Positions 1 to 53,459 of a stretch of DNA of 64,000 nucleotides are shown here, one piece after another. The notes under the pieces are model-generated. The model did no database searches and was not told the origin of the DNA. It saw only the letters and a program-made list of their open reading frames with translations. The position numbers and the translations under genes are program-made. Every line of letters starts with the position of its first letter. Within the stretch, counting starts at the first letter, position 1. The DNA comes from Halorubrum yunnanense (GTDB lineage Archaea; Halobacteriota; Halobacteria; Halobacteriales; Haloferacaceae). The DNA is taken from assembly GCF_026586675.1 (NCBI RefSeq), contig NZ_JAODIX010000019.1, forward strand, positions 131,603 through 195,602, in the 5' to 3' direction.

Positions 1-380
1 GGAGGTGAGAGGTGCGGTCGCTGTGGGGGTGGGACTCAAACGGGCAGTCGCGAGGACGGCGGAGGCGACGCAAGCACTGGAAGGAGCGAACGCAGTGAGC
101 GACTGAAGCGCGCAGCGAGCGTGCGCCGTCCTCGCGGCTGGGGGTTTGGAGGTGTTTGCCGCTGAGTTCACGTGTCGCCGAGCAGCTGGGGGTTTGGAGG
201 TGTTTGCCGCTGAGTTCACGTGTCGCCGAGCAGCTGGGGGTTTGGAGGTGTTTGCCGCTGAGTTCACGTGTCGCCGAGCGGCTGGGGGTTTGGAGGTGTT
301 TGCCGCTGAGTTCACGTGTCGCCGAGCGGCTGGGGGTTTGGAGGTGTTTGCCGGCACGACTACGGATTCTGTTTATAAAT
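1..380 (-). repeat. Structured intergenic element, copy 1 (truncated by window start)
   Basis: This is the first of five related intergenic elements. It lies in reverse orientation, taking forward as the direction from the CAAAGCCCCAGCC-type box to the CTTTGAG-type box. Visible parts, from high to low coordinate, are TTTATAAAT at 372-380, a tandemly repeated box (137-353), stem I and the reverse complement of GTTTGAGTCCCACC near 30-43. Stem I pairs 49-61 with 124-136 over 13 perfect base pairs, and 45-48 with 137-140 extends it with one T-G pair. The rest of the element lies before position 1. No plausible protein is encoded; the frame open at 146-382 is only the translated repeat. Confidence 0.8.
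137..353. repeat. 48-bp tandem repeat, four units plus a partial fifth
   Basis: The core GCTGGGGGTTTGGAGG begins at 137, 185, 233, 281 and 329, an exact 48-bp period. The unit also contains GAGTTCACGTGTCGCC. The base before the core is A at the second and third units and G at the fourth and fifth, which suggests stepwise duplication. The array is the expanded outer module of element copy 1. The repeats are contiguous with no unique spacers, so it is not a CRISPR. Confidence 0.95.
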
Positions 381-6562: not shown

Positions 6563-6669
6563 GGGACCTAATTTAGTTGTTCGAGGGTAAGTATAGAACG
6601 AACAGGCGCATATCAGGAGTTACGAACCGACGATCGGTTCGTGGTTCCCGACTGCTTCGGCCCTCTCCG

Positions 6670-6772
6670 CGTTCGATCCTCTCGGCTCCCTCCCCACGTT
6701 CGATCCTCTCGGCTCTCTCCCCACGTTCGATCCTCTCGGCTCTCTCCCCACGTTCGATCCTCTCGGCACCTC
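6670..6772. repeat. 27-bp tandem repeat, about four units
   Basis: CGTTCGATCCTCTCGGC begins at 6670, 6697, 6724 and 6751, an exact 27-bp period. The linker is CTCTCTCCCCA or a one-base variant. It lies between the stop codon at 6521 and the PEP synthase start. It is unrelated to the GGCTGGGG-type element repeats elsewhere in the window. Confidence 0.95.
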
Positions 6773-19767: not shown

Positions 19768-19844
19768 GACGGATACTCGGATCCGGTTTTTAAATCGGTG
19801 CGGGTGGTAGTGATCGGGATTTTCGTCGCGGTTGCGGTCGCCCA

Positions 19845-20204
19845 TTTATAAACAGCCGCCGCTGCACCGGCGGTGAACGCTTCCAAAGCCCCAGCCGATT
19901 GTTTATAAATAACTGGTCGCGGATCGGCGGTGAACGCTTCCAAAGCCCCAGCCGGGAGGACTCGCGCGACTCGCTGCGCGCTTCAGTCGCTCACTTCGCT
20001 CGCTCCCTGCAGTGCTTACGTCGTCGTGCTTCGTCCCCCCGGCTGCCCCTTTGAGCCCCGCCCCGCGTAGCACCGCAACCGCACCTCAAACCTCCCCAGC
20101 CTCGTCGGTCGCCCTCCGCGTTGCTCCGGGCGACCGACTCCCTCGCGCGCGCTCCTCGGCCGCGATGCGGCCTCGGAGGCACGCGCCACCGCAGTTATTT
20201 AAAA
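19845..20204 (+). repeat. Structured intergenic element, copy 2
   Basis: A forward copy with two 57-bp outer modules (19845-19901 and 19902-19958). Each begins TTTATAAA and ends at CTTCCAAAGCCCCAGCCG. Stem I pairs 19949-19961 with 20033-20045 (12 of 13). The CTTTGAG box is at 20049-20055. Stem II pairs 20104-20114 with 20128-20138 (11 perfect), and stem III is 20158-20172 (GGCCGC/GCGGCC). The end is GTTATTTAAAA at 20194-20204. Nothing protein-like is encoded. It fills the gap between the S9 peptidase and the aldo/keto reductase. Confidence 0.88.
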
Positions 20205-33604: not shown

Positions 33605-33991
33605 TTTATTTATAAATAGACGGTGCGGTGGCGTGTGCCGTCGAGCGGCCGGTGGCCGCGAGACGCACGCGCGAGGGACGCGGTGAGCGCTCGGAGAGCG
33701 CGAACCGCGAGGCTGGGGAGGCGTGAGGTGCGGTCGCGGTGCGGGTGGGTGGGACTCAAAGGGGCAGTCGCGAGGACGAAGCACGGCGTAGTAAGCACCG
33801 CAGCGAGGGAGCGTCAGCGACTGAGCGAGGAGCGCGACAAGCCGCGCGAGTCCTCGCGGCTGGGGCTTTGGAGTGGTTCGCCGTCGATCCGGTCTCATCG
33901 GCGTATGAGCGAGCGGCTGGGGCTTTATGAGCGCTCACGGTTGGTACAACGGTATCCCCTTATTAGTGAGCGGCTGGAGGGCTGTGGGCGT
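33605..33991 (-). repeat. Structured intergenic element, copy 3 (reverse), left flank of thi4
   Basis: A reverse copy. TTTATAAAT is at 33609-33617 (the element's far end). Stem III is 33643-33657 and stem II 33681-33707. The reverse complement of the GAGTCCCACC box is near 33750-33760, and stem I pairs 33765-33777 with 33850-33862. Three outer modules with a 57-bp period start at 33858, 33915 and 33972; the third is degenerate. Their GGCTGGGG ends point toward thi4. A 47-nt stretch (33668-33714) is exactly the reverse complement of 35102-35148 in copy 4. Confidence 0.88.
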
Positions 33992-35015: not shown

Positions 35016-35215
35016 TTTATTTATAAATAGCTGAGAACGGATCGGCGGCGAACACCGCCAAAGCCCCAGCCGGCACAGCAACCGCAGCCTCACACCTCCA
35101 CAGCCTCGCGGTTCGCGCTCTCCGAGCGCTCACCGCGTCCCTCGCGCGGTACTGAGTCACGGCCGCCTTCGGCGGCCGCTCGCAGGCACGCGCCACCGCC
35201 TCGTTCGTTTATAAA
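35016..35215 (+). repeat. Structured intergenic element, copy 4 (short form), right flank of thi4
   Basis: A 200-bp forward copy lacking stem I and the CTTTGAG box. TTTATAAAT at 35020-35028 is followed by CCAAAGCCCCAGCC, then directly by the CCTCACACCTCC box, stem II (35109-35135), stem III (35160-35178: CGGCCGCC/GGCGGCCG) and GCACGCGCCACCGC, ending at TTTATAAA (35208-35215). Its CAAAGCCCCAGCC end faces thi4, as in copy 3 but inverted. The missing middle looks like an internal deletion. Confidence 0.85.
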
Positions 35216-53118: not shown

Positions 53119-53459
53119 TTTATAAATGATTGACTCCGTGATGAACACTTCCAAAGCCCCAGCCGGCGAGGCGGGCGCACGCTCGCTGCGCTCCTCACTC
53201 GGTCGCTCACTTCGTTCGCTCCCTCGTTGCGGTGTCGCCGGCGGCGAAGCCGCCGGCTGCCCGTGGCGCTATGCGCCACGGTGCTTACGTCGCCTGCGCC
53301 CGCCTCGCCGGCTGCCCCTTTGAGTCCCACCCGACCGCACCGCACAGCCTCACGCCTCCCCAGCCTCGCCGCTCGCTGCGCTCGCGGCGTCCCTCGCACC
53401 GTCGGTTCGCGGCCTATCGGCCGCTCACCGGGGCGCGCCGCCGCACCGATCTTTATAAG
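53119..53459 (+). repeat. Structured intergenic element, copy 5
   Basis: A forward copy. TTTATAAAT is at 53119-53127, then ACTTCCAAAGCCCCAGCCG (53147-53165). Stem I pairs 53160-53179 with 53295-53314 over 20 perfect base pairs. Two further hairpins lie inside it (53236-53256 and 53261-53281). CCTTTGAGTCCCACC is near 53318-53332. Stem II is CGCCGC/GCGGCG (53367-53372 with 53384-53389) and stem III GCGGCC/GGCCGC (53409-53424). The end is TTTATAAG at 53452-53459. The whole lies in the gap between the duplicated-domain protein and purK. Confidence 0.9.

Follow-up and report, generated by a model that had tools for sequence, protein, structure and literature searches.

Copy 5 of a repeated hairpin in the window (the whole 64,000-nucleotide stretch of Halorubrum DNA analysed here) belongs to a haloarchaeal folded element with a core of about 123 bases, in which it is pairing, not sequence, that is preserved at individual genomic sites. 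The element is gained and lost, its copies being present or absent at orthologous sites, and the family of structured repeats that it represents is apparently undescribed as far as could be searched, lacking a name, an Rfam model and a known partner. We regard it as an even call whether this family is a haloarchaea-wide, high-copy, REP-like non-autonomous mobile element that is mobilised in trans and acts as a folded single strand; its mobility and its recognition are inferred. The folding strand, further covarying helices and the multiplicity in the genome and across the order go beyond the initial annotation of this DNA, which had been concerned with stem I of the hairpin.

The whole core of copy 5 lies at positions 53151 to 53332, with the minus strand as the folding strand, and is matched by the covariance model with 83.8 bits (E 2e-14). 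Its predicted fold has an energy of -119 kcal/mol, with z -7.0 as RNA and z -6.7 as DNA. An outer helix is formed by the arm CAAAG (53152-53156) and its partner CTTTG (53318-53322, in plus-strand letters), both assigned to the minus strand, a pair that covaries between genera. The arms of stem I at 53160-53179 and 53295-53314 (minus strand) proved complementary over 20 of 20 bp when checked base by base, as had been proposed; the arms stand, but not the plus strand on which they had been read, the complement being the better-folding strand. An apical ladder (53190-53232, minus strand) of 2-bp Watson-Crick steps alternating with tandem G.A/A.G carries a GNA-type apical loop. Copy 5 is atypical in that its stem arms enclose, at 53235-53283, an insert of about 50 bp that standard copies lack; this insert consists of two perfect hairpins, at 53238-53256 and at 53261-53281, and is flanked by repeated GGTG, with no strand assigned. 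A flanking module at 53333-53448 (minus strand) with CTCCCCAGCC and GC-rich hairpins is found in Halorubrum and, in other genera, with some of the copies, and a TTTATAA box at 53452-53458 (strand unassigned) lies at the right edge of the element, where AT boxes recur in most copies. To the left of the core, the last 57-bp-type unit holds a TTTATAAA box at approximately 53119-53128, likewise without an assigned strand.

A two-hairpin module of about 50 bp is also found in L097, L098, L106, L122 and L250, within the core or the flanking module; its sequences differ among copies, and the two-hairpin form recurs. Possibly, it is a second small mobile repeat. The SMR-A elements of Haloquadratum, small repeats that insert inside the palindromes of other repeats (PMC3119063), resemble the insert of copy 5, but they measure about 110 bp and have terminal inverted repeats, whereas the insert has about 50 bp and two hairpins.

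On the minus strand of copy 5, the conserved unit reads GGGTGGGACT(S)(R)AAGGGGC, a long imperfect hairpin and GGGGCTTY, and the unit common to the genera is GGGTGGGACTGAAAGGGGC-hairpin-GGGGGCTTTCG. Halorubrum copies are ordered as tandem units, hairpin core, CTGCCCCTTTGAGTCCCACCC and a GC-rich module with an AT box at its end. The tandem units, one to five per element and 57 bp long (51-57; 48 in copy 1), each end in CCAAAGCCCCAGCCG, so that each could stand in as a partner for the outer helix, and many carry a box like that of copy 5 (window 134-373 and 19823-19954; L063-L129). The 57-bp units were seen in Halorubrum only, and in other genera some copies have a GGCTGGGGAGG module ahead of them; the TATA-containing tandem units would be a Halorubrum add-on.

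Elsewhere in the window, the core of copy 1 occupies 27-149 (the plus strand folds, with the element on the minus strand; covariance model 137.8 bits) and is preceded by five 48-bp units at 134-373, that of copy 2 occupies 19940-20063 (minus strand, 101.7 bits) and is preceded by two 57-bp units, and that of copy 3 occupies 33747-33871 (plus strand, 100.9 bits). For these three copies, 13-bp windows of stem I had been listed, and their pairing is as claimed: 49-61 with 124-136 in copy 1 (13 of 13), 19949-19961 with 20033-20045 in copy 2 (12 of 13), and 33765-33777 with 33850-33862 in copy 3 (12 Watson-Crick pairs and one T-G). The windows belong, however, to a single aligned stem, which begins at a shared CAG/CTG. 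Copy 4 (35045-35180, minus strand) is an element whose hairpin core has been deleted and which gives no covariance-model match; it lacks stem I, as had been noted, the core of this copy (35057-35072 onward) having been lost by deletion. Inverted repeats of such length and spacing are not expected by chance, because five perfect ones of at least 16 bp with loops of up to 140 occur in the window and none in any of ten shuffles; a perfect repeat of 20 bp is found once, against zero in the shuffles. A 27-bp tandem repeat, CTCCCCACGTTCGATCCTCTCGGCTCT, at 6663-6767 has no relation to the folded element.

In 191 standard cores, which comprise 102 distinct arm pairs, the pairing of stem I amounts to 97.6%; exchanging arms among copies lowers it to 78.0 ± 0.8% (maximum 81.2% over 1000 swaps), which bears out the earlier suggestion that the stem is maintained by compensatory change. 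Covariation at background level over many genomic copies would have refuted this suggestion; an R-scape-like, tree-aware test (FastTree tree, Fitch reconstruction, per-branch substitutions put at random columns, APC-corrected G as the statistic, 100 null alignments) instead gave 16 covarying pairs at E<0.05, well above background and all nested in one hairpin, six of them in stem I and the rest further in. Six stem-I pairs have E<=0.01 under this null and a seventh has E about 6, the outermost pairs being uninformative because they hardly vary. Since the MAFFT alignment A1, which contains both stem classes, misregisters class B within stem I, pair counts were taken from anchored arms or from class A only. 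In the class-A alignment A2 (50 sequences), 98.6% of cells are paired versus 86.2% after shuffling, and changes on both sides affect 26 of 39 pairs, a number reached by none of 500 shuffles; if the partner is slid by one to three columns, pairing falls to 27-46%.

The same holds outside Halorubrum. Twelve genomes of 11 other genera supplied 39 model-aligned matches, in which pairing reaches 94.7%; both sides have changed in 32 of 38 pairs, and nearly all stem-I pairs show several pair types. This alignment is drawn towards the model, but pairing after shuffling or sliding remains far lower. The outer helix covaries between genera as CAAAG/CTTTG, GAAAG/CTTTC and GGAAG/CTTCC. Where copies at the same locus in different species were compared (76 comparisons with both flanks shared, not all of them independent), stem-I differences were two-sided in 190 and one-sided in 72 instances at 98% pairing, with one to three compensated sites in 36 comparisons and four or more in 25. 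Single compensated sites were seen at the orthologous loci L213/L254, L079/L230 and L081/L287, and such changes indicate selection at fixed sites.

The genome that contains the window (Halorubrum, 3.17 Mb) has 86 anchor clusters, with at least 72 complete cores having both ends among the copies listed. At least 150 copies were counted on the complete Halorubrum chromosome G022 and at least 80 in other genera (G193/G204), and numbers range from 0 to over 150 per genome between related genomes. An exact 15-mer motif is present in 49 of 52 Halorubrum genomes and, in a family-wide sample, in 30 of 30 Halorubrum and none of 118 other genomes, while, within the order, covariance model R1 at E<=0.01 finds matches in 162 of 243 genomes and 57 of 78 genera. 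Sampling across the phylum gave 24 matching genomes, every one of them in this order; roughly 164 genomes outside it have no match, so that this sample serves as a control for chance matches, albeit one unmatched in GC content. Plasmids carry the element rarely (six records). A viral origin was rejected, as BLAST against phage records and strict patterns run on the IMG/VR viral collection gave no match. On G022, 12 of 13 listed copies between 0 and 250 kb lie on one strand and those between 250 and 1000 kb mostly on the other, but a runs test for strand bias along this complete chromosome was not significant.

Filled and empty orthologous sites were found at three loci (L119 and L190 versus L195; L226 versus L192; L220 versus L159). 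Of 30 genomes examined at the purK locus, six have a forward element, one has an inverted element without the hairpin, and the others have none; the inverted one, L251, is opposite in orientation to L245/L250/L256 and lies between a 24-bp inverted repeat, GCGGGAGTGAGTATTGCAGATCGG. This pair is local, and inverted repeats in the flanks are at control level, so that terminal inverted repeats as a general border of the element were rejected. The three empty sites viewed show no target duplication, and insertion junctions are not base-exact. In some other genera, inverted core pairs with a REPIN-like arrangement occur at a spacing of about 25 to 180 bp (L292, L304, L312, L314, L316).

High copy number, conserved pairing, strand preference, gain and loss, selection in place and convergent placement all speak for the REP-like mobile reading, as does the lack of a conserved promoter upstream of the minimal unit in other genera. 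Against it, no mobilising enzyme has been found, no recent insertion between near-identical strains has been shown, and the inexact junctions come without a visible target duplication; moreover, purifying selection on pairing at fixed sites exceeds what a purely selfish element needs, unless recent spread or gene conversion refreshes the copies. The likeness to the REP/REPIN sequences and their RAYT partners of bacteria (PMC3116915, PMC3733652, PMC6006769) is considerable: both are high-copy intergenic imperfect palindromes with short loops and tolerated G-T, both have stem sub-families with alternative complementary bases, and both sometimes form inverted pairs; the high copy number, extragenic position and conserved stem pairing expected of REP/RAYT elements are all present. 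Yet REPs have 20-40 nt and a GTAG/CGTC tag, in contrast to about 123 nt, a G.A ladder and a G-tract box in the haloarchaeal element. Membership of the REP/RAYT class was rejected on these grounds, there being no 20-40 bp palindrome with a GTAG or CGTC tag, while the 123-position core ends in GGGTGGGAC and GGGGCTTYS. A dedicated RAYT-type Y1 transposase was likewise rejected, since 11 of 52 Halorubrum genomes, several of them rich in copies, have no PF01797 match. Of the Y1 proteins, no subclass other than IS200 has been reported from Archaea (PMC6006769).

When folded as RNA, the minus strand (complementary to the plus-strand form) does better in 189 of 191 cores, with mean energies of -65.9 versus -57.8 kcal/mol, and extended elements agree in 169 of 169 cases (-171 versus -143 kcal/mol), while random segments of the window fold symmetrically on both strands; with DNA parameters, it is favoured in 116 of 120 cores. 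Pairing exceptions on this strand comprise 46 G.U versus 8 A.C among distinct rows. Most of the G.U excess comes from two positions, at one of which only one arm is free to vary, which is why energy together with mismatch identity provides the stronger strand arguments. As a single strand, the minus strand is thus predicted to form one long hairpin. Its apical part consists of two Watson-Crick pairs, tandem G.A/A.G, two further Watson-Crick pairs, tandem G.A and the loop, with the G and A of the tandem columns 92-98% conserved and the adjoining pairs covarying, and a GGG/GGG internal loop is nearly invariant. Cores differ in length by increments of close to 8 nt (anchor spacings 96, 102 and 110), as the addition of one 4+4 step would produce. 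The flanking bases that we take to be favourable for tandem G.A in DNA are not present at all G.A steps.

Apical loops are of the GNA type in 96 of 138 triloops and of the GNNA type in 38 of 40 tetraloops, usually on G-C pairs. In this they resemble DNA mini-hairpins that are extraordinarily stable when two or more G-C pairs carry a GNA or GNNA loop (PMC4686876); those are designed oligonucleotides, whereas the haloarchaeal loop caps a natural G.A ladder. By this analogy, the loops lean towards single-stranded DNA, with RNA not excluded. Conserved G-tracts (GGGTGGG, GGGG and GGGG) flank the outer helix at core positions 1-7 and 16-18 and in the G-run before CTTTG on the folding strand, where they could form a quadruplex; in some genera, they are reduced to GG. 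We hold only tentatively the more specific proposal of a mobile class that acts as folded single-stranded DNA, with a sheared G.A ladder, GNA/GNNA loops, a quadruplex of G-tracts possible in high intracellular potassium, and a non-Y1 enzyme.

It is also possible, though doubtful, that the family is a structured noncoding RNA which is present in many copies, each transcribed from its minus strand, and which has a cellular role; there are no expression data for such an RNA. The preference for this strand with its tolerance of G.U, the larger folding energy gap for RNA than for DNA, and the AT boxes near the right edge in Halorubrum would suit a transcript; the minimal unit of other genera, however, lacks a conserved upstream promoter, the rarity of GNRA (5 of 38) among the GNNA tetraloops is unusual for RNA, and copy number differs too widely between related genomes. 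Nor is there a sense bias to neighbouring genes, co-directional neighbours being '--' in 43 and '++' in 39 of 170 cases (18 are divergent); a 3'UTR or sense-oriented cis element was rejected on the same ground.

That the complementarity of the arms is kept up by mutation alone, through quasi-palindrome correction or template switching together with gene conversion and without structural selection, seems improbable. Whole-stem class switches at one locus (L119 class A versus L190 class B) would fit conversion or template switching, and the larger same-locus replacements of this kind could indeed be conversion. Correction would, however, erase mismatches, yet the tandem G.A columns and the GGG/GGG loop are kept; the exceptions are G.U rather than A.C on one strand, and the structure persists across genera despite different stem sequences. 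Quasi-palindrome correction as the sole cause is disfavoured because the conserved mismatches rank among the best conserved positions.

The placement of the copies, which are intergenic and have convergent neighbours in 70 of 170 cases versus a background of 103 of 525 (20%), raises the further prospect of an architectural or transcription-ending element acting at the DNA level between convergent genes. Its rarity on plasmids and absence from the viral collections scanned would agree with this, but we judge it unlikely, as a double-stranded or cruciform role would favour neither strand, many copies lie between co-directional genes, and many haloarchaeal genomes have none.

Among named families, Rfam 15 gave no relevant match at the gathering score or at E up to 10, a tRNA scan gave none, and open-access PMC literature searched by topic or sequence string yielded no description of the element (subscription papers being outside reach). 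MITEs fail, as terminal inverted repeats are not above control and no target duplication was seen. PATEs of Haloquadratum walsbyi, which are numerous transposase-free repeats with palindromes, no TIR, no target duplication and core deletions (PMC3119063), come closer: these features, except the palindromes, are shared, the criterion of no TIR and no target duplication being met at the three empty sites viewed. PATEs differ in their near-terminal palindromes related to IS605 ends, whereas the haloarchaeal element is built on one long covarying hairpin and is still present where Y1 genes are lacking. Two Y1 genes of its own genome adjoin tnpB-like ORFs, and IS200/605 ends were rejected after comparison with these loci only, no match being found save to a nearby element copy. 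Because several copy-rich Halorubrum genomes, among them G019 (86 motif copies), G029 (60) and G045 (51), have no Y1 match, an IS200/605 Y1 transposase is not required for the presence of the element. A PATE or other IS200/IS605 derivative mobilised by TnpA is hence scarcely credible, its agreement in TIR and duplication notwithstanding, given one long internal hairpin instead of two near-terminal palindromes, the dissimilar ends and the genomes without Y1. The nearest kinds are the PATEs and SMRs of Haloquadratum (PMC3119063) and the bacterial REPs (PMC3733652), and PATE, REP and MITE each fail at least one defining feature tested.

Under the favoured reading of a REP-like mobile element, the folded single strand, either DNA exposed during replication or repair or a transcript, would be the form recognised by an unidentified trans-acting enzyme of the host or of an element. 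Its recognition features may be the tandem G.A steps, which are conserved, together with the GGG/GGG internal loop and the 5' GGGTGGG, while stem I would be a sequence-neutral spacer. As the copies are natural variants, each constrained to pair, they amount to a ready-made mutational scan that reveals which positions vary, which mismatches may not, and which species are without the element. Both the recognition rule and the missing enzyme are directly testable in genetically tractable haloarchaea.
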